Of a stretch of 64,000 nt of DNA, positions 7,397 through 49,931 are shown piece after piece. Source of the stretch: a virus. Under the pieces are notes generated by a model. The model had not been told where the DNA came from. It made no database searches and was given only the letters and a program-made list of their open reading frames with translations. How positions within the stretch are numbered: position 1 is the first letter of the stretch; every line of letters starts with the position of its first letter. The DNA lies in IMG/VR virus record IMGVR_UViG_3300026521_000527, positions 62,001 through 126,000 of that record. One strand, written 5' to 3'. The translations under genes were made by a program, and so were the position numbers.

Positions 7397-8407
7397 TTAA
7401 AGGTCTTTTCTAAACTCTTCATCATTATATAGTCCGCCGTATCTCTCAGATGTAAAACAACCATCTTTTGATTTAGCCCCTCTTATGCTTTCACATGTGT
7501 GGACTATATTATTTAAACGAACATAAACATTTTCTGTTCCAGCTGCCTCAGAAACCTTTTTATAAATTTCTTCAGTAAGTTCTTCTTGCAACCAACCTCT
7601 TTGTCCAACCCAATCAACTATTCTTTGTAATTTACTAATTCCAAGAACGTTATCTTCTGGAACATAAGAAATTATTGCATAAGCATCTTCTCTAAATGTT
7701 GATGAAAAAGGAGCAGCATGATGACTACAAACTGCAGTTAAATCAACACGTTTTGTAATTCTATGTTTGATTTTATTATTATTTGGAAATGTTGCCATTC
7801 TTGGAGGTTTGCTCCATCTCCCACTCATTAACTCTCTATCGTCTGTTGTTGATGCACCACACCACATTTTAGCAATTCTTTGGGCAGTTCCAATATTACC
7901 TGTTTCCAAATCGCTCATTACATTTGGATCACTGAGGTCAATTTTCATAGCTCTGAATGATTCCTCAATAAGTTTACCAGTTTTATATCTCATAATAAAA
8001 TGGGCTTCATCTGTCCATTTATAATCTTGCTCAAATATATTTTCATTTATTTTAAAAATAGGAGCCTGCTTATAAGTCTGCAGAGCTTTTGCAAATCCAA
8101 CCACCGTGTTAAATTTGCGATGATATGCCTCAAGTATCTCAAAGAATTCGATAACTTTAGGGTTCGGACTATCTGTTTCATAAAGTTCAATTACTTGATC
8201 TATGATCGGGTTCCCAAACTCAGTGTAATAACCTCTAGGTAAATATAATGTATAGGAATTATTTTTTTTATCGAACTCAATATTTTCCCAAGGTTTATAA
8301 AAATTATTTAATCTAATTTTTACATTATCAGATGATTCTATATGATCTTGGGTACAGATTCTATTTTCCTGTTTTTCAGGAAAATAGATTATTTCAGTAA
8401 CTTCCAT
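7397..8407 (-). CDS. folE: GTP cyclohydrolase I (FolE), long form
   Basis: FolE converts GTP to dihydroneopterin triphosphate, the first step toward preQ0 and other 7-deazaguanines. The C-terminal half carries the family signature: IGTAQRIAKM near 172-181, the zinc-site CSHH at 227-230, GISKLQRIV near 256-264, QEEL near 274, and HTCESIRG near 303-310 with the last zinc cysteine at 305. The usual CEHH is CSHH here. At 336 residues it is over 100 longer than typical FolE because of an N-terminal region of unknown role. With queD, queE, queC, Gat-QueC and the DpdA-like gene in this window it forms a DNA-modification pathway. The strong AAAGGA site supports the start. Confidence 0.93.
   Translation of the reverse strand: MEVTEIIYFPEKQENRICTQDHIESSDNVKIRLNNFYKPWENIEFDKKNNSYTLYLPRGYYTEFGNPIIDQVIELYETDSPNPKVIEFFEILEAYHRKFNTVVGFAKALQTYKQAPIFKINENIFEQDYKWTDEAHFIMRYKTGKLIEESFRAMKIDLSDPNVMSDLETGNIGTAQRIAKMWCGASTTDDRELMSGRWSKPPRMATFPNNNKIKHRITKRVDLTAVCSHHAAPFSSTFREDAYAIISYVPEDNVLGISKLQRIVDWVGQRGWLQEELTEEIYKKVSEAAGTENVYVRLNNIVHTCESIRGAKSKDGCFTSERYGGLYNDEEFRKDL
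8361..8387. repeat. Intragenic inverted repeat (11-bp arms)
   Basis: CTATTTTCCTG and CAGGAAAATAG flank a TTTTT loop within the first 20 codons of folE, so the hairpin could affect folE translation. Confidence 0.75.
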
Positions 8408-8418
8408 TTAAGTTTCCT

Positions 8419-8853
8419 TTACTCTGCTTCTGTTGCTTCTGTTGCTTCTGTTGCTTCTGTTGCTTCTGTTGCTTCTGTTGCTTCTGTTGCTTCTGTTGCT
8501 TCTGTTGCTTCTGTCGCAGCCATTAAAATTTCAATCACACTTTCAAGAACCTGTTTGCCTTCTTCTTCAGTATACTCATCTGGACCTGCAAAATCAAGTG
8601 TGCTTAGATTCTGGTTGTCGTCAAAATTTAATATAATTTCACAAGGGATTTGTGCATCCATGTGTAGTTTAGAAACAACATTGAATACCATAACATCTTT
8701 ATTATCCCTAGTTTCTTTTTGGGCAGCAATTATATAAACACCAGTTTTTTCCATAGCCTCCATTATTTCAGGATTCTCGATAAAAGGTGCAGACCCATCC
8801 ATTTGATAAGAATCCATCTCTACTTTATTTTCAACATTTTCAACATTTTCCAT
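8419..8853 (-). CDS. Unknown acidic protein with C-terminal Ala-Thr-Glu repeat
   Basis: This 144-residue protein ends in about ten Ala-Thr-Glu repeats encoded by a 9-base tandem repeat. The body (about 20-105) is a compact alpha/beta segment with no recognised family. The tail is acidic and probably unstructured. The gene lies 11 bases before folE in the same operon and has AAAAGGA at its start. The repeat number could easily change by slippage. Confidence 0.85.
   Translation of the reverse strand: MENVENVENKVEMDSYQMDGSAPFIENPEIMEAMEKTGVYIIAAQKETRDNKDVMVFNVVSKLHMDAQIPCEIILNFDDNQNLSTLDFAGPDEYTEEEGKQVLESVIEILMAATEATEATEATEATEATEATEATEATEATEAE
8427..8516. repeat. 9-base tandem repeat, ten units
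   Basis: The unit CTTCTGTTG (plus strand) occurs nine times exactly and once as CTTCTGTCG. It is in frame and encodes Ala-Thr-Glu repeats at the C-terminus of the gene at 8419-8853. Confidence 0.97.
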
Positions 8854-8864
8854 GATAATTCCTT

Positions 8865-9446
8865 TTAATTTAATTGTGCTTCTGGTGCAGTTAACATGCT
8901 ACCAATACCATGATTTCTATAGAAATCAAAATTCATCGTGCCGATAGCCAACACTTTCTGTACTTGTTCCAAATAACTACAAAAAGTTTCGATCTGAAAT
9001 AAAGACTCAATTTCAAATAATGTTTGATTTCCCTTATGTAAAATATTAAAAACTATTTTATCTTTATTAGGAAATCTAATGTATGCTGGTTTTTGATAAC
9101 CAGCATACTCCTCTAATGTACTCGATCCAATTAATATAAATGATGTATTCGAAGCATTTTCAATTATCTCCTTTCTAAGTTTAATTGACTGAATTAATTT
9201 TATAATATTTGCCAAATCCAATTCTATTGTCGGTTCATCTCTAAGATCCCGAGGAATTATATTTGGTGAAGATTGTTTGGAAAATCTCATGATTAGACGA
9301 CCGACTTCATATTGCAATTTAAAATTAATTATAAATTGACAACCCTCATCTGAATGGAATCCTTCAGTTGATCCATAAACTGGAAAATTACCGAAATGAA
9401 GATTACTTTTAAGAGTAATTTTTTGGGAGGTTTTAGATGAAGACAT
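8865..9446 (-). CDS. Unknown 193-residue protein
   Basis: No family is recognised. The N-terminus is Ser/Thr/Lys-rich, followed by a beta-rich region and an amphipathic helix near 160. It has no signal peptide or membrane segment. It follows the 44-residue gene with a 3-base gap and precedes the repeat-tailed gene by 11 bases, so all are probably co-transcribed with folE. A 10-11 bp hairpin lies inside it. Confidence 0.75.
   Translation of the reverse strand: MSSSKTSQKITLKSNLHFGNFPVYGSTEGFHSDEGCQFIINFKLQYEVGRLIMRFSKQSSPNIIPRDLRDEPTIELDLANIIKLIQSIKLRKEIIENASNTSFILIGSSTLEEYAGYQKPAYIRFPNKDKIVFNILHKGNQTLFEIESLFQIETFCSYLEQVQKVLAIGTMNFDFYRNHGIGSMLTAPEAQLN
9081..9108. repeat. Intragenic inverted repeat (11-bp arms)
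   Basis: GTATGCTGGTT and AACCAGCATAC are separated by six bases, inside the 193-residue gene. Confidence 0.75.
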
Positions 9447-9449
9447 AAT

Positions 9450-9584
9450 TTACTTCTTCATATTATTTAAAATCTTTGTCATTAGATGATGCCTGGCATC
9501 CATAAATGGGTTAATATATACCGGCCAGAGATGGGGTGCCAGTACTTTACTTAATTGGATTTTTTTAGTCTGATCTTGTTGCAT
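9450..9584 (-). CDS. Small protein, 44 residues
   Basis: A short frame starts at ATG 9582-9584 with a strong AAAGGAG seven bases upstream and ends in TAA at 9450-9452. It fills the only gap between the HNH protein gene, which it overlaps by 20 bases, and the 193-residue gene. The protein starts MQQDQTKKIQLSKVLAPHLW and has a basic, Met/His-rich C-terminus. Function is unknown. The ribosome site and exact packing make it a likely real gene. Confidence 0.7.
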   Translation of the reverse strand: MQQDQTKKIQLSKVLAPHLWPVYINPFMDARHHLMTKILNNMKK

Positions 9585-9990
9585 AGAACTCCTTTATAAG
9601 TTTTTTCTGTTTTTCATGTGCAACCGTTATTGCATCTAATACGTCTGGAACATGATCATGATATTTTTGATGACAATGTTTGCAAAGCACTATATAATCA
9701 ACTTCTCTTGCGAAATGTTTTTCCATAACCTCTTCAACAATTTGCAAATCAGTATATTCATATAAATCATCAAGATCAATATGTTTCTGAACGCATGTTT
9801 CAAAAATATCAAAGATTGTTAAAGGATGATGATGGGATTCTGGTTTAACATATTCGAAACTTTCTTTGCAGATAGGACATTCCTTTACTGGATATTTTGT
9901 AATTTTTTGCCAGCTCGCATAACTCATACTACCTCTTGCAATTTTTACTAAGTGTTTAATACATTTTACGAAAGATCTTTCATTAGTCAA
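9565..9990 (-). CDS. HNH-like zinc-binding protein, unusual start
   Basis: This 141-residue protein has CPIC (about 38-41), ESHHHP (about 51-56) and LCKHCHQKYH (about 101-110). This is the paired Cys-x2-Cys plus His-rich core of an HNH or zinc-finger nuclease-type fold. It may act on DNA in repair, packaging or homing. The start is unclear. The frame has no ATG before residue 22. A TTG lies at 9988-9990, but the only good ribosome site (AAGGAAG, near 10015) is placed for an ATT codon at 10006-10008, in frame. ATG at 9927 with GAGG is a third option. Confidence 0.75.
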   Translation of the reverse strand: MTNERSFVKCIKHLVKIARGSMSYASWQKITKYPVKECPICKESFEYVKPESHHHPLTIFDIFETCVQKHIDLDDLYEYTDLQIVEEVMEKHFAREVDYIVLCKHCHQKYHDHVPDVLDAITVAHEKQKKLIKEFYATRSD

Positions 9991-10025
9991 ATCGTAATTG
10001 TACCAAATATTACTTCCTTTTTTAT

Positions 10026-10886: not shown

Positions 10887-11531
10887 TCAACTACTTCCGT
10901 AGGTATATGATTTATTATATAATTCTTTAAATTTTTTAACCTCTTTGGAGTACGTAAAAAATTTATCCAGATTTACTGTCTTTGTCACTTTATCGAATTC
11001 ATAATGCCCTAAACAATAATCATTAATATATCTCGGCTCAAAATTAAACCCATAAGTTATTGAATCTCCTTGAATTGAAATCTCAGGATGAGTCTCTTTT
11101 AACTCTTTTAACACTTCTACCGGAATTACCCTAAATTTTACTACAACTTTGGTTTCATCATTAAATTTAACGATATCTGGATTTAATAAAATATAATAAT
11201 CTGCTTCAGTTACTGAAAGACCGGATGGTTTTTTCCTTGGGAGATTCCCAATAGAATTATCTTCTTTATATGTCTCAATAAAAATATTCTTAGATACAAA
11301 GCTTGATATTTTAATTTCCAATTTTGTATTATCAGATAATTGAACATCGAACTCTGGTGCAAATCCTAAAGAATAATACTTAGGTTGAATACCATTGTTT
11401 AATAATTGGCAAAATTTCTTCGAGACTAAAGTCTCAAAGAAATAATCCAAGTATTCTTTATCAGATCTTGTCCAATCAGAAAGAGTTCCAATATTTATTT
11501 TTTTATCTTGAGTCCAGTAGAACTCTTTCAT
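10887..11531 (-). CDS. Putative PD-(D/E)XK-fold nuclease
   Basis: The motif EFDVQLSDNTKLEIK fits the Asp-x(n)-Glu-x-Lys core of the restriction-endonuclease-like fold. A downstream segment with FIETYK and TEADYYILL fits the extra Glu and ADYY-type strand often seen in this group. It could be a phage repair, recombination or host-DNA-degrading enzyme; the target is not predictable. ATG at 11529-11531 makes a 4-base ATGA overlap with queD, so I prefer it. An upstream ATG at 11570 also has a GGAG site and would add 13 residues. Confidence 0.6.
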   Translation of the reverse strand: MKEFYWTQDKKINIGTLSDWTRSDKEYLDYFFETLVSKKFCQLLNNGIQPKYYSLGFAPEFDVQLSDNTKLEIKISSFVSKNIFIETYKEDNSIGNLPRKKPSGLSVTEADYYILLNPDIVKFNDETKVVVKFRVIPVEVLKELKETHPEISIQGDSITYGFNFEPRYINDYCLGHYEFDKVTKTVNLDKFFTYSKEVKKFKELYNKSYTYGSS

Positions 11532-12136
11532 TGCGCAAGAACCTTTACATGACTTTTCGGAGTCTCCCATAACTCAACTCCAGTTACTTTGACATGTTCA
11601 AGATCTTTTAATTTATTAGTAGCTATTCTTAGTAACCAGCCAGCAATATTTTCAGAAGTTGGTATAAAATCGACTAATACTATCCCTTCATATTTTTCTT
11701 TTACAGCTTTATCTTTTTCTTCATCGGACTGCAAATCAATACCTAATTTATTCAGATCTGGTATAAAATATTCATCTATTTTAAATACATTTTTTAACTC
11801 ATTATCCTCAAATAATCTTGGTAATTCATCTTGCAAAAGAGGATCATTTATGTCAAAAAGCATTTTGTGATCCAATACATCATCTATAAAATCTTTCATG
11901 AACCCAATCATTTTAAAGTCTAAAACCATTCCGGTATCTTTTATATTGTCACCTGGAATTGTCTCCTCGAGTAAAATCTTTGCTCTATAAGAATGCCCAT
12001 GAAGATGCCTACAAGCACAGCACGAATCTCCTCTATGAGTATATTTTGTATCAAGAGTTTGACTCCATACCCTATGTCCAGCTTCCCAGTGAAATTCTTT
12101 ATCGATGATTGTTTTTGTAGTTTGTATTCTTTGCAT
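11528..12136 (-). CDS. queD: 6-carboxytetrahydropterin synthase (QueD)
   Basis: QueD makes 6-carboxy-tetrahydropterin from the FolE product, the second step of 7-deazaguanine synthesis. Visible are FHWEAGH at 15-21, the catalytic Cys region CCACRHLHGH at 39-48 with zinc histidines, GMVLDF near 98, LDHKML near 118, PTSENIA near 161, and ETPKSH near 191. At 202 residues it is longer than most QueD proteins (about 120-140), with an insert between about 125 and 155. It has a strong AAAGGA site and is the first gene after a terminator-like palindrome. Confidence 0.93.
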   Translation of the reverse strand: MQRIQTTKTIIDKEFHWEAGHRVWSQTLDTKYTHRGDSCCACRHLHGHSYRAKILLEETIPGDNIKDTGMVLDFKMIGFMKDFIDDVLDHKMLFDINDPLLQDELPRLFEDNELKNVFKIDEYFIPDLNKLGIDLQSDEEKDKAVKEKYEGIVLVDFIPTSENIAGWLLRIATNKLKDLEHVKVTGVELWETPKSHVKVLAQ

Positions 12137-14166: not shown

Positions 14167-15390
14167 TTACTCTATAATTCCGTTTTTAATGCCAGATCCA
14201 TCATAATAAGATGAAATGATTTTTTTAACTTCATTATGAATTTCAAATGTTTCTGTTGCAACATCACTCTTTAAAATTTTTAGAAGACGTTTGATTAAAG
14301 TTAGATTATTAACCATTTCATTCGCTAGTCGACCTAGATTAAATACTGGACTATATCTTTTAAAGTCATCAGATGTCCAATTCATTAATTCTTCCAATTC
14401 GATATTGTCTACAAGTTCATCTGCGAAATGCATAACACTTTTTATATTCAATGAAATTATTTCGACAAATGTTTGATTTGAAACATTTCCTTGAATTAAC
14501 TCATTCTTGAATTCATTAATTTCGTCTTCTGTTAAACTATCAAACTCACTATGATGTTCAATCATTTTTGTCATTTCATTTAAATCATTTATCACATCAA
14601 ATGACATATCTGTTTTCAATACCATTGGTGTTTTATATTTTATCGGACTAAATCGAATAACCTCTGAACTATCCATAGTAATTTCTATATCAAAAAGTTT
14701 TTCGAGTATTCTTCCAGTAATTAAAGCAACTCTTGAACTCTGACCAAGCATATGTATATGTTTCGGTTTTATTCCTTTTTTCTGCAAATATGTCATTAAC
14801 CAGATTGTCATTGGCACGAAATGATTAAAATGAACTCTAGTTTCAGACTTTAATCCAACCAGGCCGCCGAATGAATACCTATCAAAATATTTATAACATT
14901 CGGTTGAATCCATTAATTGAAGCCAATCGTCGAGTAATTCTGGTGTCCTACTCTGAACGACAAAAATCTGTTTATCTCTAAGTTCAGAATATTTTTTATG
15001 CAATAAAATACTTTCAGTTATACTGTACTCATTGTACTTTAAAATTTTTGATTTATTAAACTTAGGATTATTTATATCCAGAGTAAAAATATAATCAATA
15101 TTGCCCCTAAATTTTTCAAGAATAAAATGATAAACATCAGTGTATTCTCTTAATCTTCTTTCTGTTATATGACCAGTAATTATCTGATATCCACCACTAT
15201 CCAAATATAATTTCATATTCGGTAATCGTTTGACTTCAATTTTATTCATCTGGCGGGCAATATCTTGTAAACTCCAACCACGAGCTGTGGTTGGTTCGGC
15301 TATCGAAACTAGATAATCATCAAAATGATGAACAACTGGTTTTATAGTTGATTCGGAAGGTGCGACACCAAGAACTGCAACATATTTCAT
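14167..15390 (-). CDS. dpdA: DpdA-like 7-deazaguanine DNA transglycosylase
   Basis: This is a tRNA-guanine-transglycosylase-fold protein. In phages with 7-deazaguanine genes this family (DpdA) exchanges guanine in DNA for the modified base. The hallmark YLDSGGYQ is at 62-69, and YSFGGLVGLKSE near 172-183 matches the later TGT substrate loop. LDINNPKF near 104 fits the core strand. At 407 residues it is in the DpdA range. FolE, QueD, QueE, QueC and Gat-QueC in the same window make DNA, not tRNA, the likely substrate, though a tRNA role cannot be excluded from sequence alone. Confidence 0.85.
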   Translation of the reverse strand: MKYVAVLGVAPSESTIKPVVHHFDDYLVSIAEPTTARGWSLQDIARQMNKIEVKRLPNMKLYLDSGGYQIITGHITERRLREYTDVYHFILEKFRGNIDYIFTLDINNPKFNKSKILKYNEYSITESILLHKKYSELRDKQIFVVQSRTPELLDDWLQLMDSTECYKYFDRYSFGGLVGLKSETRVHFNHFVPMTIWLMTYLQKKGIKPKHIHMLGQSSRVALITGRILEKLFDIEITMDSSEVIRFSPIKYKTPMVLKTDMSFDVINDLNEMTKMIEHHSEFDSLTEDEINEFKNELIQGNVSNQTFVEIISLNIKSVMHFADELVDNIELEELMNWTSDDFKRYSPVFNLGRLANEMVNNLTLIKRLLKILKSDVATETFEIHNEVKKIISSYYDGSGIKNGIIE

Positions 15391-19557: not shown

Positions 19558-20127
19558 CTAAATTTTATTATTATTTTCTGCTTTAAATTTCGCTTTCTGT
19601 GTTTCATCAGCCAATGTTTTTAATTGACCGGCCAATCCTATCGCATGCCATTTTTCAAGAGCTAAAGTAATTTTAGCATTACCTTTATATGATAAAAATA
19701 TTTTAATTTTATTATTATTACCCATTGCTGCGCCGACGGAAACCTGTTTAGTTTGACCTTGGCCTGCTGCAGTTCCTGCAAATTTTGAACTATCAGTAAA
19801 TACCATAAAATCACATTTTTGATAAACAGCAGCTTGTATTAGTGCCTCACTAAGCGCATATAAATCACGGATACTTATTTTTTGAGTTTCTTTTCTTGAT
19901 TGATCATAAGTCCTTCCAGATGCTTTTGATTGATCAGGAACTCCAGGTACAAACATTAAAAAAGCATTCGCTGTAGGAAATTCTTTTGCTTTATCAATAA
20001 AACCAGTTGCTTCAAATAATTGAGTTGCTGGAAAATTAACTCTACCAACGACTTCAATTGAAGAAGCTTGTGGTGCTTGTGGTGCTTGTGGTGCTTGTGG
20101 TGCTTGTGGTGCTTGTGGTGTATTCAT
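19558..20127 (-). CDS. Unknown protein with N-terminal Pro-Gln-Ala repeat
   Basis: This 189-residue protein begins with a flexible Pro-Gln-Ala repeat (about residues 4-21) encoded by a 9-base tandem repeat. A folded region follows with a Lys/Gln/Gly-rich centre (for example AAGQGQTKQVS) and a strand-rich C-terminus ending in Lys/Asn. A nucleic-acid-binding or virion role is possible, but no motif decides. The start has a clear AGGAG site. Confidence 0.75.
   Translation of the reverse strand: MNTPQAPQAPQAPQAPQAPQASSIEVVGRVNFPATQLFEATGFIDKAKEFPTANAFLMFVPGVPDQSKASGRTYDQSRKETQKISIRDLYALSEALIQAAVYQKCDFMVFTDSSKFAGTAAGQGQTKQVSVGAAMGNNNKIKIFLSYKGNAKITLALEKWHAIGLAGQLKTLADETQKAKFKAENNNKI
20066..20119. 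repeat. 9-base tandem repeat, six units
   Basis: Six perfect GCTTGTGGT units (plus strand) encode the N-terminal Pro-Gln-Ala repeats of the gene at 19558-20127. Confidence 0.95.
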
Positions 20128-23222: not shown

Positions 23223-24053
23223 TTAATCTAATTGTCTATCTATATGAATCCTAGGGCTGTATGTTATACCAAGTGATAGTGCTTTTCTGCTAGTTGCATC
23301 CATTGATTTTTTCCAAACGGTGCTATCTTTATCCAGAGGATCATTTGGTGTAAACGGCATTAAGATTATATTTTTTTTTGGAACATTTAATTCCTCAGTC
23401 AGATATTTTATAAACATCTGAGTAGTATTAAATGAAATTGATTCATCAGTGTAATCATAAATAAATTTATAGAATACATTATATTGACGAAGATATGAGT
23501 TTATATTATTAAAAACATTAAAGTACATAGCATTGACTTCAGCTTGAGTTAGTTGATCCTCATAACAACTGGTTGCGTTTATTTTTGGAGATATTGTTAA
23601 GGTTGGAGTTACTCCTAAATCATGAATAATTTCATTAAATGATTTTATTAAAGCCAAACAATTCTTTTCATCACTTAAAAGGTTTCCATTTGACTCAATT
23701 CCAAGGAATTCAAAATGTTTAAAATTTACCGAGTCTGCAGTTCTAAATATATCTGGAAACCACTCCATAAAATGTAATGGTTCACCACCAGTGATCGTTA
23801 ATCTCTCAGGAGATACTTTTTCAAGTTCTTTTGCCATATCGATCATCAATTTACGGTCATCAAATGCTTTATATTGAGGAGCATCACCCCATGAGAATTT
23901 AGTATCACAGAAAGAACAAGCTGCCGAATAACAACCAGCTAACCTTAAATATAAACTAGGCTCTCCTATTGAATTTCCTTCACCTTCTAATGAAATAAAC
24001 CACTGAGATATTTTTGGAGCAATTACTGACTGGTTAAAATTTAATTCTTTCAT
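23223..24053 (-). CDS. queE: 7-carboxy-7-deazaguanine synthase (QueE)
   Basis: QueE is the radical-SAM enzyme that rearranges 6-carboxy-tetrahydropterin to 7-carboxy-7-deazaguanine. FISLEGEGNSIGEPS near 19-33 and RLAGC just after fit the family, as does TITGGEPLHFMEW near 93-105. The cluster motif reads GCYSAACSFCDT, so the cysteines are spaced Cx4Cx2C rather than the usual Cx3Cx2C. The C-terminal segment with IILMPF is typical of QueE. At 276 residues it is normal to slightly long. It lies between a palindrome and the lysin gene, with a good ribosome site. Confidence 0.92.
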   Translation of the reverse strand: MKELNFNQSVIAPKISQWFISLEGEGNSIGEPSLYLRLAGCYSAACSFCDTKFSWGDAPQYKAFDDRKLMIDMAKELEKVSPERLTITGGEPLHFMEWFPDIFRTADSVNFKHFEFLGIESNGNLLSDEKNCLALIKSFNEIIHDLGVTPTLTISPKINATSCYEDQLTQAEVNAMYFNVFNNINSYLRQYNVFYKFIYDYTDESISFNTTQMFIKYLTEELNVPKKNIILMPFTPNDPLDKDSTVWKKSMDATSRKALSLGITYSPRIHIDRQLD

Positions 24054-24093: not shown

Positions 24094-24127
24094 GATTAAT
24101 GAGTGAGTCTAGACTCACTCATTAATC
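24094..24127 (-). terminator. 34-base perfect palindrome at the end of the exonuclease gene
   Basis: GATTAATGAGTGAGTCT is followed by its exact complement (17-bp arms) and includes the stop codon of the exonuclease gene. It separates that gene from queE. Confidence 0.7.
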
Positions 24128-31571: not shown

Positions 31572-31607
31572 TTGCTTCGAGTGATGTTTAAACATCACTC
31601 GAAGCAA
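31572..31607 (-). terminator. 36-base perfect palindrome at the end of Gat-QueC
   Basis: TTGCTTCGAGTGATGTTT is followed by its exact complement (18-bp arms), overlapping the last codons and stop of Gat-QueC. It probably forms the end of that transcript. Confidence 0.7.
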
Positions 31608-32931
31608 TTGCTTCTTGTCTTAGTATACATGATCCACATTTGCCACAAGGTTCTCCATTTTTTGGAAAATAGCAACTAAATGAAATATCGAGGATTTCAT
31701 TTAGTATCTCATCACCAAATTCTTCTCTAAATGATTTAATCATATTTGTCTTTGTCAATCCAAAATAAGGTGAGATAACTCTATATCCTCCTGTAATTTT
31801 AAAATCTTTCCCACCAAATTTTACGACGGTTGATATAGCTTCCAACCAACCTTCACTATTATCCATAAAAACCATACCCTCGGATAAATTTAATCCAAAA
31901 AGAATATCTACATTTTTTAGATTCATTGATTCAGCAAGAGCCGCTAAATCTATAGCAAATTGACTATTTCTATATGGAACATAAGCTATTGGTGATTCCG
32001 TTTCGGATTTATCACCGATTGCATTTTTATTAGCTATTTTTGGCAACTGAGCATCAGTAATTTTAAAATAGTGCTTAAAGAATTTTTTAGCATTAATAAT
32101 ATTTACTTCAGCTCCTGGATAAATTCTCCTTTTGAAATCTTCAATTGCTTTGAGTTCTTTTGAACTCGCGCGAGTTCCCCAATCAAAATAATTTAAAATT
32201 ACTCTTCGATAATGAGTTGATAATAATTTATACGTTGATAACGATATATCCATTCCGCCGGAAAAAGCAACCATTAAAGTTCTTTGATTTGAATCTTTTT
32301 GACTTTTCTTTTCAAAGAGTTCAAAAGAACTGGTTCCCAAAATATTTTCAAAAATAACATTATCGAATTTATCCTTGATTACATTTCTTACCCATACTTT
32401 TAGTCCATGTTCAATAAACTTGAACATGTAATCAATTTTATCCAAATATATTATACTGAAGGAACCTTCAGCTTCATCTAGATTTGATAACTCTTGTAAG
32501 ATATCTGTATCTATCTTTATTTTAGTGTTATATTTTTCAGCTAATTTTTCAGCATTATAAACAGTCCCATGAACTGAAAAAATAATATCATCAAAATTGC
32601 AGGAAGTATATGGCTGTAATATATTTGGATATCCAATTTCCATTTCAGGTTCTTGTCGAGAGAAAATCATAAAATTGTATTTTTTTTCAGGATTGTATCC
32701 TTCAACAACTGCTTTTAAATTTTGCTCAAAAGCATATAATACTTCATCAATTGTATTTCCGGTAAATATAGTGTGCTTTTTATTGTCACTATCCGCGACT
32801 AACATTGATGTGTAATCATGTTTCCCATTCTGGGAGCCTTTTATTTTCAAATAGTTTTTTAAATATTTTTTAGCTTCTGGATTGTCAACAACAGTTGACC
32901 CTTTTGCAGTAAAAGATATTATTTGACACAT
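31588..32931 (-). CDS. Gat-QueC: class II glutamine amidotransferase fused to QueC
   Basis: This 447-residue protein has an N-terminal glutamine amidotransferase with Cys2 as the expected nucleophile (MCQII), HGTVYNAE near 121, and EAEGSFSIIYLD near 153-164. The C-terminal half is QueC-like: SGGMDIS loop at 224-230, VPYRNSQFA later, and a zinc site C420, C429, C432, C435. In phages such fusions are linked to amidated 7-deazaguanine in DNA (ADG or archaeosine type). The normal QueC SGGxDS reads SGGMDI here. A separate QueC is also present at 49215-49931. The upstream neighbour overlaps nothing and has a 3-base gap. Confidence 0.88.
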   Translation of the reverse strand: MCQIISFTAKGSTVVDNPEAKKYLKNYLKIKGSQNGKHDYTSMLVADSDNKKHTIFTGNTIDEVLYAFEQNLKAVVEGYNPEKKYNFMIFSRQEPEMEIGYPNILQPYTSCNFDDIIFSVHGTVYNAEKLAEKYNTKIKIDTDILQELSNLDEAEGSFSIIYLDKIDYMFKFIEHGLKVWVRNVIKDKFDNVIFENILGTSSFELFEKKSQKDSNQRTLMVAFSGGMDISLSTYKLLSTHYRRVILNYFDWGTRASSKELKAIEDFKRRIYPGAEVNIINAKKFFKHYFKITDAQLPKIANKNAIGDKSETESPIAYVPYRNSQFAIDLAALAESMNLKNVDILFGLNLSEGMVFMDNSEGWLEAISTVVKFGGKDFKITGGYRVISPYFGLTKTNMIKSFREEFGDEILNEILDISFSCYFPKNGEPCGKCGSCILRQEAIASSDV

Positions 32932-33870: not shown

Positions 33871-35248
33871 CTTGAAACTCTTGCTGTTGAGTGAGGATTT
33901 GAGCGGCCTCCTCAATTTTTAATACAGCTTTTGCAATTGCCTCCAAAAGAGGATGTTCAAATCCTTCTTGATTTGCAATGTACTGGATGTATTTCATCAC
34001 ACTATACCAATTTGGATTTAGCTCAAGAAGTAAATCTTCAGTTGGGATATCCGAAGTTATTCTTTTGCATGTTCTTGTAGTAGTTTGCAACCCACCATTT
34101 TTAAGTTCTTCCCAATTTATGGTGGTATTTTCAAATACTGTTGCCATATCCATTTCAACATCTGATTCAATGACATTACAATCATCAAAATGATTAAACT
34201 TAACCAGATTTTCTTCTGGATAAGTTTCTGTATCACTTGAATGCACCACATAGAAATATGGCCAAGTTATGTAAACGGCTGTCAAAGTTACATTGTCATT
34301 TGAAATGACATATGCTTTTTCTGGTTGTAGTTCGATATTTGAAGTTGAACTTAATAGTTCAACTTTATCGGACAATGTTTTAATAAGTATCGTTAGATTT
34401 AAATCGACTACAACTTTATGACCATGCTCATCAACAGCATTTTGAATATATTTTGATACAACCTCAGTAAAACCAGTACTAAAAAGAGTCTCAATAACTT
34501 CTCTGGTCACTTGATTATTTGGAATCGCTAAATAATTTGATAGATTATTATCATTAAGATTTTCATCTGTCGATGTTTCAACTATATGTTGAAACATCGA
34601 AGTTGTTATTTCACGAACTGGTGTTGGGACACCGATTGTATCTGCAGCTGGTGTATCTGCAGCTTGTGTTTGTACCTCAGCTTGTGTTTCTGCATCTTGT
34701 GTTTGTACCTCAGCTGGTGTATCTGCAGCTTGTGTTTGTACCTCAGCTGGTGTATCTGCAGCTTGTGTTTGTACCTCAGCTGGTGTATCTGCAGCTTGTG
34801 TTTGTACCTCAGCTGGTGCTTCTTCAACAGCTTGAACCCTCTGCTGAGGCAAGTGATGTCTAATAATATTATCTAACGAGTTAATAATATTATCAAAAGA
34901 AGTGTCACCAGTAATTTGAGCTGCAGCAATATCTTGTGGTGATACATCAGCAACCAAGCTCTCTTCGAATTCACGAATTCTCGCAGCTATTGTCCCAGGA
35001 GCAAGCAATTCAAAAACTTGAATTGTACTCAATGCTTGTATAGGTATCGCTACTACCGGAGCCAATTCAGGGATTGTCATTTCCCCATCTATATATTGAA
35101 TTTTCTGTGAAAATTCAATCATCTGGTCTGTAAAACGTGTACAGACCCCATCAAAGTTTACAAAAGTTTGAGTGCCATTCGGCATTCTAAATGAACCTTC
35201 TATAGAAACCTCTGAATTTATGTCCAACGTTAATTGTTGCTGTTGCAT
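33851..35248 (-). CDS. Unknown protein with an 11-residue tandem repeat
   Basis: This 465-residue protein has a folded N-terminal domain (1-140), then four to five imperfect TPAEVQTQAAD repeats (about 146-205), and a C-terminal domain of about 250 residues. The repeat is acidic/Gln-rich and probably a flexible linker. No family is recognised. It has its own strong promoter-like element and leader hairpin upstream, which suggests an abundant product, possibly structural. The start has AAAGGAG. Confidence 0.85.
   Translation of the reverse strand: MQQQQLTLDINSEVSIEGSFRMPNGTQTFVNFDGVCTRFTDQMIEFSQKIQYIDGEMTIPELAPVVAIPIQALSTIQVFELLAPGTIAARIREFEESLVADVSPQDIAAAQITGDTSFDNIINSLDNIIRHHLPQQRVQAVEEAPAEVQTQAADTPAEVQTQAADTPAEVQTQAADTPAEVQTQDAETQAEVQTQAADTPAADTIGVPTPVREITTSMFQHIVETSTDENLNDNNLSNYLAIPNNQVTREVIETLFSTGFTEVVSKYIQNAVDEHGHKVVVDLNLTILIKTLSDKVELLSSTSNIELQPEKAYVISNDNVTLTAVYITWPYFYVVHSSDTETYPEENLVKFNHFDDCNVIESDVEMDMATVFENTTINWEELKNGGLQTTTRTCKRITSDIPTEDLLLELNPNWYSVMKYIQYIANQEGFEHPLLEAIAKAVLKIEEAAQILTQQQEFQDESITG
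34571..34601. repeat. Intragenic inverted repeat (13-bp arms)
   Basis: TCGATGTTTCAAC and GTTGAAACATCGA are separated by TATAT, inside the repeat-containing gene. Confidence 0.85.
34637..34827. repeat. 33-base coding minisatellite
   Basis: Several near-identical 33-base units encode the TPAEVQTQAAD repeats of the 465-residue protein. The units carry scattered substitutions (for example QDAETQ). The edges are approximate. Confidence 0.9.
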
Positions 35249-35400: not shown

Positions 35401-37374
35401 TTAATCATTAAACTCCATACCAATTAATTTTAATGCAGTGTTCACAGCACGTTTTGTCAGTGAACTATATTTTGGATTTAAATCATATCCACCGTCGGTT
35501 ACATATCTAAGAATAAATGTTTCTTTTTCTGTTACAGTGCTATCTGACTTAATTGTATACAACTCTTTTAACATACCATTCTTCTCTTTATGAGCTAAAA
35601 GCGCAGCTAGTGTTTGCCAACTGATATGTTGCCCACCTTGCTTTTTTCTACCTCTTGCCGGCTGCCCAGTGATTTTACTATAGCTATTTGCAAAAGATAC
35701 TGAAGTGTATTTGCTATAACTAGTATGATGTAATTTTAACCAGTAGTTTGATCCAATAAATCCTTTAATAGTTTTCGAGTACACCTGATCACCAAATACT
35801 CTATTTTTATAATGCCATTTATCTCTCAACCATTTTATTAAATCTTCTGAAATTTCAACTTCTTCTTTGCCCATAAATATACCGAAATACGAACCATATT
35901 TATCAAGAAATTCATCAAAAAATTCTTTATATTTTAATTTATTAAAATTACTAGAATATAAAAAGAAACCATTCTTTTTAACATCCTCTAAAAAATCTTC
36001 AAAGAGTTCTTTTTGACTCAAAAGCTCTTGAACTTTTTTGTAATAATCCTCATCTATTTTTTTAATGTAATGTTCATTTATAAACATTACTCTTTCTCTA
36101 ATAGCTTCTTGATCTTCTACTTTAGATTCAACATCTTCTATGATCTTGCTCAATCCAAGTTCAAAAACACTCCCCCAATTATTTCTACCAAATATACCAA
36201 GAGGATTAAAAATTGCATCAACACCAGCAGGCATTAATTCATCCGGAATAATCATAGAAATTACACCTTTACCTGCATATAAATTAGTGAATTTATCACC
36301 TCGAGTACTTCCAACGGTAATTGCTATATCGACTTCCAGTAAAAAATCAACTTCAGTAGGATCCAAACCGAATTCGTCTTTCAATTTAGTATCAAAAGAC
36401 TTTGGAAATTTATCAACACCATAATAACTAGAATATATTTCTTCTGTTAATTTTAAATTTTCTTCATCACTTAATCCTATCGATTTAAACGTCTCTTGTA
36501 ATTGATTTTTAAATACGATATTATTATTATAAAAAGTCTCAATCTCTCGAATAAGTCCTGGTGTATAAATATATTCTTGATCGAGTTCTACAAAACTCTT
36601 CTTATTATTTTTATGAACTTTGACTGATTGTATATTACCACCAAGAATACCTTTTATATTTTTGGTAAAAAATAAAGATTCTTGTGAACTTAAGTTTTGT
36701 ATTTCAGACACAAAGTGTTCACTGGTATCTATATTAAAAAATTTTATATATTCTTCAATATCCATCACTTGTCCAGGCGAGAAGAAATATTGATCCATCC
36801 CGTTCCTTAGATATTTCCATTTCTTAGTCACCGGAATAAATAATTTTTGAGAGTATGAAATTTGAGCTCGTCTAGCAAATGATTCAGATACGACTAAAGC
36901 ATCATCCGAAGTATATCCAAAAAAGCTACTAAATAATATTTTGGTCCTGTATCCTATTCTAGGCATCTTTGATTCCGGATTCATATTAGTATAATCAAAA
37001 AGAAGTTCTCCTTTTTTAATTGGCCCAACTGGTGCGATATATTTTACACCGAGTGAAAGGTTAACCATTTTTTTAAATTTCGGGACATGTTTAGATACCA
37101 GTTTTTTTAAACTGGTATAATAAATAATAATAGTCTCTCTGCTTGAAAGAATTACATAACCATCATCTTGGGCAATTTGACTAAAAGGAGAATCAACTTC
37201 AGATATACCTAAATAATTTTTGTCAATTATAAATGGTGTTTCTGTTAAATTACTAACACATGCTTGCGTCTGCTGTTTACTTGACATATTTAACCTTGAC
37301 GCTTCCACCGAGTTCGCAAACGATGTAAATGTTTCAATTTGAGGACTAAATAAAACTAAATTCTTTTTTTCCAT
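35401..37374 (-). CDS. RNA polymerase beta subunit, C-terminal piece
   Basis: This 657-residue protein is the catalytic C-terminal half of a phage multisubunit RNA polymerase beta subunit. MPRIGYRTKI and GYTSDDALVVSESF near 137-166 match the conserved WxGYNxEDAIxISE region. GDKFTNLYAGKGVIS at 359-373 carries the two active-site lysines (361 and 369), and FNPLGIFGRNN follows. WLKLHHTSYSKY and KKQGGQHISWQTLAALLAH match the C-terminal clamp-contact region. The N-terminal half is encoded at 40737-41906. The split agrees with phiKZ- and AR9-type polymerases. Confidence 0.93.
   Translation of the reverse strand: MEKKNLVLFSPQIETFTSFANSVEASRLNMSSKQQTQACVSNLTETPFIIDKNYLGISEVDSPFSQIAQDDGYVILSSRETIIIYYTSLKKLVSKHVPKFKKMVNLSLGVKYIAPVGPIKKGELLFDYTNMNPESKMPRIGYRTKILFSSFFGYTSDDALVVSESFARRAQISYSQKLFIPVTKKWKYLRNGMDQYFFSPGQVMDIEEYIKFFNIDTSEHFVSEIQNLSSQESLFFTKNIKGILGGNIQSVKVHKNNKKSFVELDQEYIYTPGLIREIETFYNNNIVFKNQLQETFKSIGLSDEENLKLTEEIYSSYYGVDKFPKSFDTKLKDEFGLDPTEVDFLLEVDIAITVGSTRGDKFTNLYAGKGVISMIIPDELMPAGVDAIFNPLGIFGRNNWGSVFELGLSKIIEDVESKVEDQEAIRERVMFINEHYIKKIDEDYYKKVQELLSQKELFEDFLEDVKKNGFFLYSSNFNKLKYKEFFDEFLDKYGSYFGIFMGKEEVEISEDLIKWLRDKWHYKNRVFGDQVYSKTIKGFIGSNYWLKLHHTSYSKYTSVSFANSYSKITGQPARGRKKQGGQHISWQTLAALLAHKEKNGMLKELYTIKSDSTVTEKETFILRYVTDGGYDLNPKYSSLTKRAVNTALKLIGMEFND
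37095..37118. repeat. Intragenic inverted repeat (10-bp arms)
   Basis: ATACCAGTTT and AAACTGGTAT surround TTTT, inside the RNA polymerase beta C-terminal gene. Confidence 0.65.
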
Positions 37375-42381: not shown

Positions 42382-42613
42382 CCAAAGTCTCCGAATTTGG
42401 TAATGACTTTTTCAGAATATACTGATAGAATTCATCAATTTCTGATTGAAGAAAATTAACCCTCGCTCTTTTTATAATAGTAGTTTTATTCCAATGAAGT
42501 TTAATTATATTCTCTGGATAAAGCTTAGATATTTTAGTGGGTATTTTAGATTGATCAACATATTCAATATCTACTTGATAAATTGAATCATTTATAAATT
42601 TCGAGTAGATCAT
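42374..42613 (-). CDS. Unknown 79-residue protein
   Basis: This small basic protein (MIYSKFINDS at the start) has no recognised family. I prefer ATG at 42611-42613, with GGAG ten bases upstream, over the ATG at 42637, which lacks a ribosome site. It overlaps the end of the beta' C-terminal gene and the start of the next gene, so it belongs to the polymerase operon. Confidence 0.65.
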   Translation of the reverse strand: MIYSKFINDSIYQVDIEYVDQSKIPTKISKLYPENIIKLHWNKTTIIKRARVNFLQSEIDEFYQYILKKSLPNSETLDD

Positions 42614-44561
42614 GATACATGTGCTCCACTGATACATCAGTTGATTTTGTATAAATTTTACTAATAGCTCTATTACTAAAATTATAAAAAATACTTAATT
42701 TTGGATCTAGCATTTCTATAATATTTTTTAAAGCGATTTGTCTAGTCGGTTCCTTATCACTATATCTATAAAGAACATCATCTTCATCATAATATAAAAG
42801 ACTTATAATAAGTTCTAGATAAACACTTAAAATATCATTTTGCTCTATAACAACTGATAATTTATCATATAAAACAGAAGGGTCTATTAAAGCAGCTCCA
42901 TCTCTATTTTTATCAATTAAAGATGTAATTGAGTTTAATGTTTTAACTGAATCATCATTAAAAGGTTGATTAATTACATTAAATATTAGAGTTATTTTGG
43001 ACTCTTCTTTAGAAATATCTATTTCAATATCATCATCTGTATAAATATTTTTTAAATAATTTAATATATATTCTAATTGATCTTCAAGAGTTCCAATTGA
43101 CTCATTTTCTTTTTCCAAAATAATTTCTTTCTCTGAAAATTTAGCTTCTCTTAAAATACTTAGAAGTTTTTTATCCTCAGTTGCAATAAAAGCTCCACCA
43201 AAATGGTGAGTCCTAAGAACGGATTGTATAATACCCTCAGATAATCCTGATCCAATAATTGCCCCTAAGTTTACACTATCCGGTATCTTTGAACCAAAAC
43301 ATTTTTTACAGATTTTATATCCACTATGTTTACATGTAATTGGACTCCTTATTAAGATATCTAGACCAATCAGAGATTCATCATTAATATCTATTTTTTC
43401 TTCCTGTCCAGTAGAGTCATTAAACCACCATCTATGATTTAAAAGCTCAAGGATTGTTTTATTCTTAATATTTATTTTAAAATACTTATCAGTTCCGCAA
43501 TCTTCAAGATCTTTATCCAGTTTTAAAATACCCGTGGTGAAGAAGAATTTTCTTTGTAGTTCGCCTCCTTTTGGAATTGCTTCCTGTCTTTGAGCCAGCG
43601 CCAATCTAGCGCTATCTCCTGTCATAAAATACTCTTCTTCCGTTAAACCATCAAGTAAAGAATTTTCAATATTTGCTTTAAACGCTTTTCCATAGATATC
43701 CGTAGGAATACCAGTATTCGATGCAGCCTTCAGTAATTGAACCGATTTTAATCTTGCCCCACTATTGAATACAAGATTCAATATATTATTGGGATCTTCT
43801 TCCACTGTATTTTTAACCTTTTCAAAAAGTATTAAATTTTGATGAAACGCTAAAAATGGTTCTTCTTTAAATAAACTACTTCGTATATCATCTATTTCTT
43901 TATTACCAACTGCAAAATCTTTCAAATCGAAAGAAGGATTGCAGTGTGTTATAACTGTACTGCATTCTAAAAGAAATTTATCAAACTCATGTATATTCAA
44001 CCAGAAGTCAAACTCAATGCCTCTTGAATTTAAATCTTGAACTATAGCCCAAAATCTCTCAGTTAACTTTAAAAGATTTTTTTTATTTAGAACGCCATCT
44101 TTTTCAATTTCGTAGAATGGCTCACCGAGCAATTCCACAGAATTTTCCAATTCACCGAATAAAGAAATATGGATTAACCATTCAATATAAGAAAGAGTTC
44201 TATTGAACTCTTTGATGTGAAATTGTCTACCAGGTTCTGATTCAACCAAATTAATATCAGCAACTAGTTCATCTAATGTATTTAATTCAACTATTTCTCT
44301 ATCTGGGAATTGAGCTAGATTTTCTTTTGCTCGCAAAGTTAACATAAAAGCACTATAAATTGATTCATGTTCATAGTCAATTAATAATTTATCCATGTGC
44401 TCAAATTCAATAAGATTTTTCACAAAGGCGTACTTAAAATCAGCTCGTGCTTGTTTTGAATGCATAGCGGCTGCAATAACATTATCACCATCATGATCAC
44501 TATTATCAAATTGTGACATTAAATTTGATTTCTCAATTACTTGATTGCTTCCTATAATCAT
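42588..44561 (-). CDS. RNA polymerase beta' subunit, C-terminal piece (catalytic)
   Basis: This 657-residue protein begins just before the catalytic loop: NSDHDGD at 20-26, matching NADFDGD and keeping all three metal-binding aspartates (22, 24, 26) with Phe to His. Later, ICKKCFGSK and NLGAIIGSGLSEGIIQSVLR then THHFGGA match the conserved zinc and bridge-helix to trigger-loop region of beta'. The N-terminal piece is at 45456-46787. The break between the PTLHR region and the Asp loop is the type of split seen in phiKZ-like phages. Confidence 0.93.
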   Translation of the reverse strand: MIIGSNQVIEKSNLMSQFDNSDHDGDNVIAAAMHSKQARADFKYAFVKNLIEFEHMDKLLIDYEHESIYSAFMLTLRAKENLAQFPDREIVELNTLDELVADINLVESEPGRQFHIKEFNRTLSYIEWLIHISLFGELENSVELLGEPFYEIEKDGVLNKKNLLKLTERFWAIVQDLNSRGIEFDFWLNIHEFDKFLLECSTVITHCNPSFDLKDFAVGNKEIDDIRSSLFKEEPFLAFHQNLILFEKVKNTVEEDPNNILNLVFNSGARLKSVQLLKAASNTGIPTDIYGKAFKANIENSLLDGLTEEEYFMTGDSARLALAQRQEAIPKGGELQRKFFFTTGILKLDKDLEDCGTDKYFKINIKNKTILELLNHRWWFNDSTGQEEKIDINDESLIGLDILIRSPITCKHSGYKICKKCFGSKIPDSVNLGAIIGSGLSEGIIQSVLRTHHFGGAFIATEDKKLLSILREAKFSEKEIILEKENESIGTLEDQLEYILNYLKNIYTDDDIEIDISKEESKITLIFNVINQPFNDDSVKTLNSITSLIDKNRDGAALIDPSVLYDKLSVVIEQNDILSVYLELIISLLYYDEDDVLYRYSDKEPTRQIALKNIIEMLDPKLSIFYNFSNRAISKIYTKSTDVSVEHMYHDLLEIYK

Positions 44562-45455: not shown

Positions 45456-46787
45456 CTATTCCTCCAAATCATTTAAAAAATCATCAATTATTTCTTCATC
45501 ATTTACTTCTGGATTCAGTTCTATATTGCCATCATCCTCCTCATAATTTAATTTATCGTCAATTAATTTTAAAATATCATTATCATCAAAAACATTGGCT
45601 AAAACATATCCTCCTATATTATATCGCCATAATGTTGGTTGCCTCTCAACTAAGAGTTTAAATTCACTGATGTGTTTTTCTAAAAACTCTTGGAAATCTT
45701 CATCACGAATATTTATTTGGAAATCTTTATCGAATGATTTATAAATATATTGAATAAAATCAACTATTGAGATATTATTATCATTTATCGGATTATCTTG
45801 ATATTTAGTATATAAATAATGCAATAATTCCGGAAGAAATAATTTTTTTACTGACGAAACATGAAGCCCGATTTGATATGGCCTGAGAGCTGGATTAGGC
45901 ACTAAAACCGATCTTTGTGAAAACTCTACTGTTTTTCCAGTCAAGGCTTCTCGAATATAACTCTCTTTTTTTTGAAAATTAAATTCAAGTATTACTTCAT
46001 AAATTTCATCAACAGTCTGTTGGTATTTATAAACGGTATACCCGAAAAAATCTGGGTTTGCTTTAAATAATTGATCGGACATATTTATATTTTTAGCCTT
46101 ATTTTTAAGAATTTGGCTATAACTTTTGGTAATTGGATGGGGTAAAATTTTGGTAGGAGAGATTTTTATAATTTGACGACTACTTGGTGGAACCACCAAA
46201 ACATAATCTAAAAATATATAATCCAAGAATTTTGGATTTACAACTAAAGTTTCAAATGAAGCCTGATAGCTTGGATGGGTTCTTAGGAACTCAAAGAGTG
46301 ATTTTAAACTAACTATATCATAAACTGGTTGCTCAATTCTTCTTTCATTTGCTTTCATTCTAGATTCTTTTACCAATCTATGTTTTTCAAGACTAAAGAA
46401 ATAAGGAGCCTCTTTATTATTCTGGTAATCTTTTTTATTTAGTAGACTTTTTATAGCGACTTGTCCAAAAAACTGTTGCAAAACATTTTTGAAATTTGGG
46501 TTAACTACATAAATTCCATCTGGAAATTCTATTTTTGCAAATGTTGTTGTCCTATTATCTGTGGTACCGCAAAGAACATGACACTCTTCACAATACAATC
46601 CAGCGTTTTTCTTTCCAAATAGTTTATTGCATTGGCACCTAAATTTCTTAATTGGGCCAAATATTTGCTCAGAATATAAACCATCCGGATGAAAAACCTC
46701 TTGTTTCACACTGGTATATATTTTTGGACTAGTTATGTCAACTAACTGATCTGAATTTTCATAAATTTTAAAATTTAAATCTAACAT
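45456..46787 (-). CDS. RNA polymerase beta' subunit, N-terminal piece
   Basis: This 443-residue protein carries the beta' N-terminal region: DGLYSEQIFGPIKKF at 35-49, a zinc site C51, C53, C66, C69, and GKTVEFSQRSVLVPNPALRP near 282-301 matching the GRSVI region. The end reads VERQPTLWRYNIG, matching NRxPTLHR, and the gene stops before the catalytic Asp loop, which starts the gene at 42588-44561. The tail is acidic. It is the first polymerase piece in the transcript direction and follows a small zinc-binding gene. Confidence 0.93.
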   Translation of the reverse strand: MLDLNFKIYENSDQLVDITSPKIYTSVKQEVFHPDGLYSEQIFGPIKKFRCQCNKLFGKKNAGLYCEECHVLCGTTDNRTTTFAKIEFPDGIYVVNPNFKNVLQQFFGQVAIKSLLNKKDYQNNKEAPYFFSLEKHRLVKESRMKANERRIEQPVYDIVSLKSLFEFLRTHPSYQASFETLVVNPKFLDYIFLDYVLVVPPSSRQIIKISPTKILPHPITKSYSQILKNKAKNINMSDQLFKANPDFFGYTVYKYQQTVDEIYEVILEFNFQKKESYIREALTGKTVEFSQRSVLVPNPALRPYQIGLHVSSVKKLFLPELLHYLYTKYQDNPINDNNISIVDFIQYIYKSFDKDFQINIRDEDFQEFLEKHISEFKLLVERQPTLWRYNIGGYVLANVFDDNDILKLIDDKLNYEEDDGNIELNPEVNDEEIIDDFLNDLEE

Positions 46788-47173: not shown

Positions 47174-47218
47174 TTTTGTCCTTTGAAAAAAATAAAATAA
47201 AATAAAAAAATTGGACAA

Positions 47219-47406
47219 TAGGAACCCCGTCCCTCTCAGGCCAGTGAACTATCCAAGTACTACCGATTTCAGTTTATCCTGAACCATTTCCATATTTCTT
47301 ATACTTCTTTTGATTCAGGGACCTACTCACGATAGGACCCGATACCACACCACCATCCAGATGACGAGGATCCGTCCACGATTAGTACCCTCCGATATCT
47401 AACCGC
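47219..47406 (-). ncRNA. GC-rich structured intergenic region, probable RNA
   Basis: About 188 bases are near 47% G+C, against roughly 30% elsewhere, and have no supported ORF. On the minus strand there are local hairpins: GGGTCCTA with TAGGTCCC (one mismatch), TTCAG with CTGAA, and short pairs near GGCC. It lies directly downstream of promoter copy B and upstream of the SWIM-like and beta' genes. It is probably a structured RNA or leader. It does not match a tRNA, and I see no RNase P, tmRNA or group I intron core. Confidence 0.55.
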
Positions 47407-47418
47407 TTCTAATAATAG

Positions 47419-47448
47419 TATTTATATACTTCGAGAAGTTATTCTAAA
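47419..47448 (-). promoter_or_regulatory. Putative phage promoter, copy B
   Basis: On the minus strand TTTAGAATAA (47439-47448) is followed after 9 bases by GTATATAAATA (47419-47429). It overlaps the end of the clamp-loader gene and reads into the GC-rich structured region. Confidence 0.65.
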
Positions 47449-48455: not shown

Positions 48456-49204
48456 AAAAATCCAATATCTTTAGATAGTATATTCATAATATTATTATTG
48501 GCTAATATACAGACACCTTGCACGATATCTTTATTTTTCCTTAAAATATCCATCATTTTTCTTAATTCACTTCTGTTAGTGTTTAAGCTTTTAAAATATA
48601 ATTCGGCATTATGATAATCATAATAACCTTCATTAAATATATTTTTTATCCAAGCTTTTTGTAGATAATGTATTGAGATACGATGATAATTGTCATTTGA
48701 TTGAGAATTATTAATCAAAAAATCCCGAGTTCTTTTGGTTGATTCTCCCAAATGTGTAACAACTTTAAAAATTTTTAAATTAGATACATCTTTTGCGGCA
48801 AATATAAATTCAAAATCAATTTTAATTTCTCCAGGATATTCCCTTTCAAAAGATATTCTAAGTTTATAATCATTATTAAAATGATTTTTTTCTTGGCGTG
48901 TCGTTTTAACTACATCGAAAGAAATTTTTCTTTCAAATTCGCTTTTTTTCATATCATAAACCATCTGTTCAAATAGAGGATTATCAATATATCCATTTTC
49001 TAAAATCTCAGAAATTATCCATTCGAATTTTAATATATGATCAGGTTGTCTAATGTTGCAACTTATATTTTTTTGAATACCTTTTGTAAATAAGATTGTC
49101 GATAGAAAATTAAGAGCATCATTTTGAATACAATTATCTCCATTTATATGACGAAAAACCAGATTATACTGAGTCAATTTTCCACGAAATAATGATTTAG
49201 CCAT
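48452..49204 (-). CDS. Unknown 250-residue protein
   Basis: No family is recognised. It has mixed alpha/beta structure with basic stretches. It is coupled to the clamp-loader gene by a 4-base overlap and sits next to queC. A second clamp-loader subunit (gp62-like) is conceivable from position, but there is no sequence support. The start has AAGGA. Confidence 0.75.
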   Translation of the reverse strand: MAKSLFRGKLTQYNLVFRHINGDNCIQNDALNFLSTILFTKGIQKNISCNIRQPDHILKFEWIISEILENGYIDNPLFEQMVYDMKKSEFERKISFDVVKTTRQEKNHFNNDYKLRISFEREYPGEIKIDFEFIFAAKDVSNLKIFKVVTHLGESTKRTRDFLINNSQSNDNYHRISIHYLQKAWIKNIFNEGYYDYHNAELYFKSLNTNRSELRKMMDILRKNKDIVQGVCILANNNIMNILSKDIGFL

Positions 49205-49214
49205 TAAAAGATCC

Positions 49215-49931
49215 TTATATTTTAAATTGATAATTATTTATTTTATTTTCGAGAAGTGTACCTTCCGCAGCTTTTTTGCGTTCAAGACATGCCTCGCATT
49301 TTAAACAAGGCGCAAATAAATTATCTTTCTGGTTGGGATTATAACATGTCCATGTTTTCTGCCAAGGCACTTTTAACTCAATACCAACCTCAACAATTTC
49401 TTTTTTATAATTATCGACAAATGGTGTATATAATTCAATAGATTTGCAATCATTTAATTCAAGAAGACTATTTAATCTCTTGACGAATTCTGGAGAAATA
49501 TCCCAATAATCCCTATCATATATTGAGTGCTTATGAACCCCAAGTCCAATTTTAATTTCATCCACATTCATATAGAAAGAGGTAATTTCTCCAACGACAC
49601 CAGAAATTATCGAAAATAATAAATTTCTTGACGGTGTATAATATTCCATCGAAGTTTCTTTATTTATAATACCAGAGTCTCTCAATGATGAATATATTAA
49701 TCCATTTTGATTATAAATTGCATTAGTATCAATTTCAATAAAATCCAGAACTCTATTACCGAAGGTGTTTTTCATTTCCGTGAAAATGTTTCTAAAACAC
49801 TCTTTTTCAATAATGTTTAATTGTCCATAATCTATATTTATTGGTAAAATTGTAAATCCATCTTCAATTGCTTTATATGCAAGTGTTGTTGAATCCAAAC
49901 CTCCACTCATTGAAACTACACATAATTTCAT
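49215..49931 (-). CDS. queC: 7-cyano-7-deazaguanine synthase (QueC)
   Basis: QueC turns 7-carboxy-7-deazaguanine into preQ0 using ammonia and ATP. The ATP loop is SMSGGLDSTTL at 7-17, DYGQ is near 34, and SRNLLFSI fits the substrate region. The C-terminal zinc site reads CYNP, then APCLKCEACLERKKAAEG. At 238 residues it is full length. It coexists with the Gat-QueC fusion at 31588-32931, so the phage has both the plain and the amidotransferase-linked version. Confidence 0.93.
   Translation of the reverse strand: MKLCVVSMSGGLDSTTLAYKAIEDGFTILPINIDYGQLNIIEKECFRNIFTEMKNTFGNRVLDFIEIDTNAIYNQNGLIYSSLRDSGIINKETSMEYYTPSRNLLFSIISGVVGEITSFYMNVDEIKIGLGVHKHSIYDRDYWDISPEFVKRLNSLLELNDCKSIELYTPFVDNYKKEIVEVGIELKVPWQKTWTCYNPNQKDNLFAPCLKCEACLERKKAAEGTLLENKINNYQFKI

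Follow-up and report, generated by a model that had tools for sequence, protein, structure and literature searches.

Why a virus that encodes a stand-alone QueC should also carry Gat-QueC is the question raised by the 64,000-nt stretch of DNA analysed here (hereinafter the window; positions 62001-126000 of a 136,864-b virus record). Gat-QueC takes QueC's place in described phages (PMC6884629), where the choice between the two decides whether dPreQ0 or dG+ is made. The initial annotation had listed FolE, QueD, QueE, QueC, Gat-QueC and a DpdA-like enzyme as all present and scattered through the window, and this holds: the six pathway genes are intact ORFs, all on the minus strand, spread over ~42 kb within 7397-49931. 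FolE, QueD, QueE, QueC and the QueC domain of Gat-QueC are each assigned by curated models, and on this sequence evidence the six genes make up a complete predicted phage-encoded kit for a 7-deazaguanine base in DNA:

7397..8407, minus strand: FolE, GTP cyclohydrolase I (PF01227, E=3e-24; phrog_2197, 8e-35)
11528..12136, minus strand: QueD, 6-carboxytetrahydropterin synthase (PF01242, E=5e-24; phrog_2389, 1e-32)
14167..15390, minus strand: DpdA-like DNA guanine transglycosylase, 407 aa, divergent (phrog_887, E=1.5e-3)
23223..24053, minus strand: QueE, 7-carboxy-7-deazaguanine synthase, radical SAM (phrog_2076, E=1e-25; several NCBIfam QueE models)
31588..32931, minus strand: Gat-QueC, a fusion protein whose N-terminal class-II glutaminase domain precedes a QueC domain (PF06508, E=5e-23)
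32317..32931, minus strand: glutaminase (Gat) domain of Gat-QueC, about residues 1-205 (by alignment with the Gat-QueCs of 9g, Vid5, MiCath and PhiXhv-15)
31603..32277, minus strand: QueC domain of Gat-QueC, residues 219-443 (PF06508; P-loop SGGMDI, four Zn cysteines intact)
49215..49931, minus strand: stand-alone QueC, predicted preQ0 synthase, 238 aa (PF06508, E=1.5e-35)

The enzymes of the early steps have orthologues in relatives of the record. FolE (336 aa; orthologues in G001 and G002) has its catalytic domain at about residues 170-335, behind a long N-terminal extension, and keeps the zinc/catalytic residues CSHH and HTC. QueD has orthologues in G001, G002 and G007, and QueE in G001, G002, G003, G004 and G008; the QueE cluster motif is CX4CX2C in the window clade and CX3CX2C in phage 9g. 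The third Cys of the L074 QueE (9172-9933) is preceded by an unusually long spacing. An ORF at 10887-11570, which overlaps QueD by 43 bases and is a neighbour of QueD in G001 too (31% identity), resembles a PD-(D/E)xK nuclease, by eye only. The ORF directly upstream of Gat-QueC (32935-33915) is conserved, but in G002 it lies apart from Gat-QueC, and it was dropped as a pathway member.

The identity of the DpdA-like protein is the weakest of the six assignments and is proposed from motifs and profiles. On its own, the window protein matches only phrog_887 (queuine tRNA-ribosyltransferase), which is matched by 13 of 16 members of the wider family with a best E of 2.4e-7. The catalytic motifs of the TGT superfamily (DSG, LD, GG, HxxG, DS) are present, and DSGG-Q, LD, GG-V, H-LG and DS are invariant throughout the DpdA-like family. 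When the family profile is compared with an alignment of known phage DpdAs (hhalign Prob 91, E=1e-6, residues 53-248), the invariant residues DS, LD, N, H-G and DS pair one-to-one between the two alignments. A profile of the family recovered no transglycosylase from PDB sequences, and tblastn of the window protein against 50,697 phage records gave no match. Orthologues are found in G001, G002, G003 and G009, and the genes are linked to preQ0 biosynthesis genes, the distant members each lying near a QueE-like gene. In a second phage group, whose records span 113-277 kb and include L055, L056, L058 and L063, distant DpdA-like genes lie near QueE; the QueC of three members has no zinc cysteines at its C-terminus, and in L056 two DpdA-like genes stand in tandem.

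The presence of a DpdA-like gene argues against the highly improbable view that the pathway raises the supply of queuosine or preQ0 for host tRNA and modifies no DNA. Some phages do carry preQ0 genes without DpdA, and one tRNA gene, tRNA-Asn(GTT), occurs in the relative G001, but the 136.9-kb record itself contains no tRNA genes, PF01702 TGT is found in none of 13 records (controls 14/14), and QueF is absent from the record and from all relatives searched (controls positive). These three absences make host tRNA modification, which the initial annotation had put forward as the counter-explanation, unlikely and leave it unsupported.

Relatives as large as 272-281 kb make it probable that the record is a piece of a jumbo phage; the group is known from metagenomes alone. 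These relatives, the 272- and 281-kb records included, were located with an RNA polymerase beta subunit query; relatives of DpdA and Gat-QueC in viral contigs were recovered by alignment queries and the RNA polymerase query, single-sequence scans of the viral contigs for them giving no matches. Other genes of the record code for parts of a multisubunit RNA polymerase, a family-B DNA polymerase, a clamp loader, ThyX and an ATP-dependent ligase, as well as topoisomerase II-like proteins recognised by eye. A 24-kb stretch has no DNA-level match among the 50,697 phage records, and the window gives no match to Rfam. Gat-QueC of this type and the same split polymerase piece recur on two contigs assigned by binning to a Cloacimonadota genome, which we take as only a hint of the host.

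Some features of the genome stand apart from the pathway. The family-B DNA polymerase is divided into three separate, scrambled ORFs (5101-6396, 24122-25162 and 27074-28054) that hold palm/fingers, exonuclease and a C-terminal part with YGDTDS; G001 has a counterpart of each and G002 of two, the palm piece is separate in the two MAG contigs too, and no intein was seen by eye. RNA polymerase beta/beta' regions are divided among ORFs 60613-63990, 35401-37374, 45456-46787 and 42588-44561. Tandem low-complexity peptide repeats (EAT, APQ, QTQAADTPAEV) occur within ORFs at 8419-8853, 19558-20127 and 33851-35248.

The pairing of the two QueC forms extends well beyond the window. QueC of the window clade is found in five records (G000, together with G001, G002, G009 and G010, which hold the orthologues of the window QueC), and all five carry the clade Gat-QueC; four of them also have the DpdA-like gene, the exception being G010, a 41-kb fragment. 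In this fragment (G010/L074), QueE, Gat-QueC and QueC are consecutive but for one small intervening ORF, and a QueD-like gene is found ~7 kb away. The order FolE, QueD, DpdA, QueE, Gat-QueC, QueC is common to G000 and G001; in G002 it is rearranged, with all six genes still there. Independent relatives hold the same gene set, mostly at ~40-65% protein identity, so the combination is more than chance. In the tree, the Gat-QueC domains, 9g included, form one clade (100/100) and all QueCs form another (100/100), so the pair is old and not the product of a recent duplication.

Among the reference phages, the QueC query matched 234 places in 232 records and the 9g Gat-QueC query 263 places in 260 records, and no clean case of the two together was found in that collection. 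Two records had a second place for the QueC query. One, Vibrio phage V07, an apparent case of both enzymes, was set aside as a 349-kb record that is marked UNVERIFIED and looks chimeric. The other, Vibrio phage 1.081.O, has two QueC-like places, and the gene before one of them, which was checked, is no glutaminase. The literature covered, a limited survey, likewise describes no phage with both QueC and Gat-QueC. The parts are of known kinds; what is new is how they are combined, together with the lost P-loop Ser of Gat-QueC and the divergence of the DpdA.

The stand-alone QueC carries the full preQ0 synthase signature, comprising the SGGxDS P-loop, Y35, R99, Y131, Y189 and the Zn CxxCxxC block, and K165 and C188-Y189 of the E. 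coli signature are likewise kept. Mutagenesis of E. coli QueC in 2026 found Y35, R99, Y131 and Y189 to be essential, the alanine mutants being dead (PMC13329287). The window protein deviates from the E. coli enzyme at H39 (N), V96 (T), P132 (W) and C134 (I). All clade QueCs keep the P-loop Ser, Y35, R99, Y131, K165, Y189 and the zinc cysteines, and their changes fall at less tested positions (YWDI for YPDC; TP or FP for VP). It is conceivable that such changes mark one of the two paralogues as repurposed, toward a 7-amido (ADG) product or toward Cap9/QatC-like protein deazaguanylation, given that the QueC fold has been co-opted several times (PMC13329287) and that Campylobacter phages with full dADG replacement carry a QueC (PMC8306585). 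We consider this improbable: the four residues at which an alanine substitution inactivates the E. coli enzyme are all retained, and KVP40, of the same genus-level group as nt-1, has a similar YWDC.

Gat-QueC has orthologues in nine further virus records and two MAG contigs, and aligns with phage 9g Gat-QueC at an hhalign Prob of 99.2. Its Gat half matches no library model and has Ntn-glutaminase landmarks in common with the 9g enzyme, namely the MC start (Cys as residue 2), RxxPExE, VH-GTI and VD(T/S). In Ntn glutaminases the Asn of VHNGT forms the Asn-Gly oxyanion hole. This Asn is absent throughout the clade, which has VHGT instead of VHNGT(I), so glutamine use by the clade Gat-QueCs is not assured. 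The label Gat-QueC is assigned here by architecture and tree, not by proven bifunctionality. In the Xanthomonas phage PhiXhv-15 (L003, 11269-14503), the genes after Gat-QueC carry the annotations LmbE-type deacetylase and glycosyltransferase and may serve a further base modification.

The QueC half of Gat-QueC differs from that of 9g at the ATP loop. The P-loop is not intact, reading SGGMDI versus SGGxDS in 9g, and its Ser is replaced by Ile or Val in all five records with both enzymes; Y35 has become Trp in three of the five. Ser and Y35 are both intact in the Gat-QueCs of 9g, Vid5, MiCath and PhiXhv-15, and also in those of G003, G004, G005 and G011, possibly incomplete records in which stand-alone QueC was not found. 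The Gat-QueC of G008 has Ile at the P-loop, and no QueC was found in its 74-kb fragment. Within the clade, P-loop loss goes with QueC presence at a Fisher p of ~0.05, a value that ignores kinship. The correlation is a hint only, because the Ser-type members of the jumbo group form one clade by shared ancestry, and absence of QueC from relatives is weak evidence, since all of them may be incomplete.

These residues bear on whether QueC is simply redundant. The 9g Gat-QueC yields dG+ even when E. coli lacks queC, and must therefore perform both steps (PMC6884629); the mere presence of Gat-QueC thus does not imply that preQ0 must come from another enzyme. Were the window enzyme fully bifunctional in the same way, as its retained zinc cysteines, R99 and Y189 (kept clade-wide) would allow, QueC would merely boost preQ0 for a large genome. 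We judge this quite unlikely, because in each of the five records with both enzymes Gat-QueC lacks the P-loop Ser, in three of them it has Trp for Y35 as well, and both genes are retained across deep divergence.

Our preferred reading, held with moderate confidence, is instead that the last pathway steps are divided between two ancient paralogues, QueC and Gat-QueC. Substrates would flow from GTP to 7-carboxy-7-deazaguanine (CDG) through FolE, QueD and QueE, and from CDG to preQ0 by the stand-alone QueC, with ATP and ammonia. DpdA would then swap guanine in DNA for preQ0, and Gat-QueC would transfer ammonia from glutamine onto the nitrile to give archaeosine (dG+), which may protect the phage DNA from restriction. 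Amidination would follow insertion, most likely taking place on DNA, given the instability of archaeosine as a free base (PMC5485725). The jumbo-phage Gat-QueC would have lost some or all of the CDG-to-preQ0 activity that the 9g enzyme retains, which would account for the retention of QueC. The assays of nitrile amidination by QueF-L contained no ATP (PMC5485725), which suggests that a Gat-QueC confined to amidination would need no intact ATP loop. Rather more tentatively, Gat-QueC may be a dedicated ATP-independent archaeosine synthase that acts on preQ0 in DNA and is obligately paired with a separate QueC.

The initial annotation had read the two QueC forms as pointing to either two modified bases or a two-step route. 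Those alternatives were rightly framed, and the two-step route is the better supported, because QueC keeps the preQ0-synthase residues and Gat-QueC lacks the P-loop Ser in dual records. If Gat-QueC converted preQ0 only partially, dPreQ0 and dG+ would coexist as a mixed, broader restriction shield, much as Vibrio phage nt-1 carries dPreQ0, dADG and dG+ together (PMC6884629), and both window enzymes are present and look intact overall. This we regard as unlikely: the search of the record yielded a single DpdA-like gene, which disfavours two modified bases, and when Gat-QueC and DpdA of 9g are co-expressed in E. coli, dG+ far exceeds dPreQ0. The annotation's link of Gat-QueC to an amidated base needs one correction, the known product of Gat-QueC with DpdA being the amidine archaeosine (dG+) and no amide (PMC6884629).

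Three described systems come closest. Enterobacteria phage 9g (FolE, QueD, QueE, Gat-QueC, DpdA; dG+) goes through the same enzyme steps with a Gat-QueC of like architecture; its DpdA with Gat-QueC gives dG+ and its DpdA alone dPreQ0, as tested in E. coli (PMC6884629). The described 9g pathway has no separate QueC and its genes are clustered, whereas the window adds QueC, spreads its genes over 42 kb, lacks the P-loop Ser in Gat-QueC and has a very divergent DpdA. Escherichia phage CAjan (FolE, QueD, QueE, QueC, DpdA; dPreQ0) combines a stand-alone QueC with DpdA, as in the window, but has no amidotransferase, and where the window QueC reads YWDI and TPxRN, the CAjan protein shows the canonical YPDC and VPxRN. 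The Vibrio phage nt-1/KVP40 group (QueC with ArcS, DpdA2) resembles the window in coupling a preQ0 route to a separate archaeosine step, although the amidinating enzyme of nt-1 is reported as ArcS and not Gat-QueC (PMC6884629). In KVP40, QueC has YWDC, and the protein encoded two genes upstream shares the DSGG-Q and HMLG...DSS motifs with the window DpdA-like protein.

The window adds a divergent, putative DpdA family of jumbo phages, of a kind that sequence searches of reference phages miss. If the proposed division is true, the two-step reaction of a single 9g-like enzyme is split between two enzymes in these phages. The group bears on whether archaeosine is completed as the free base or on DNA, a question left open by earlier work (PMC6884629), and, having both proteins with complementary active-site changes, it offers a way to ask which residues serve the preQ0 step and which serve amidination.
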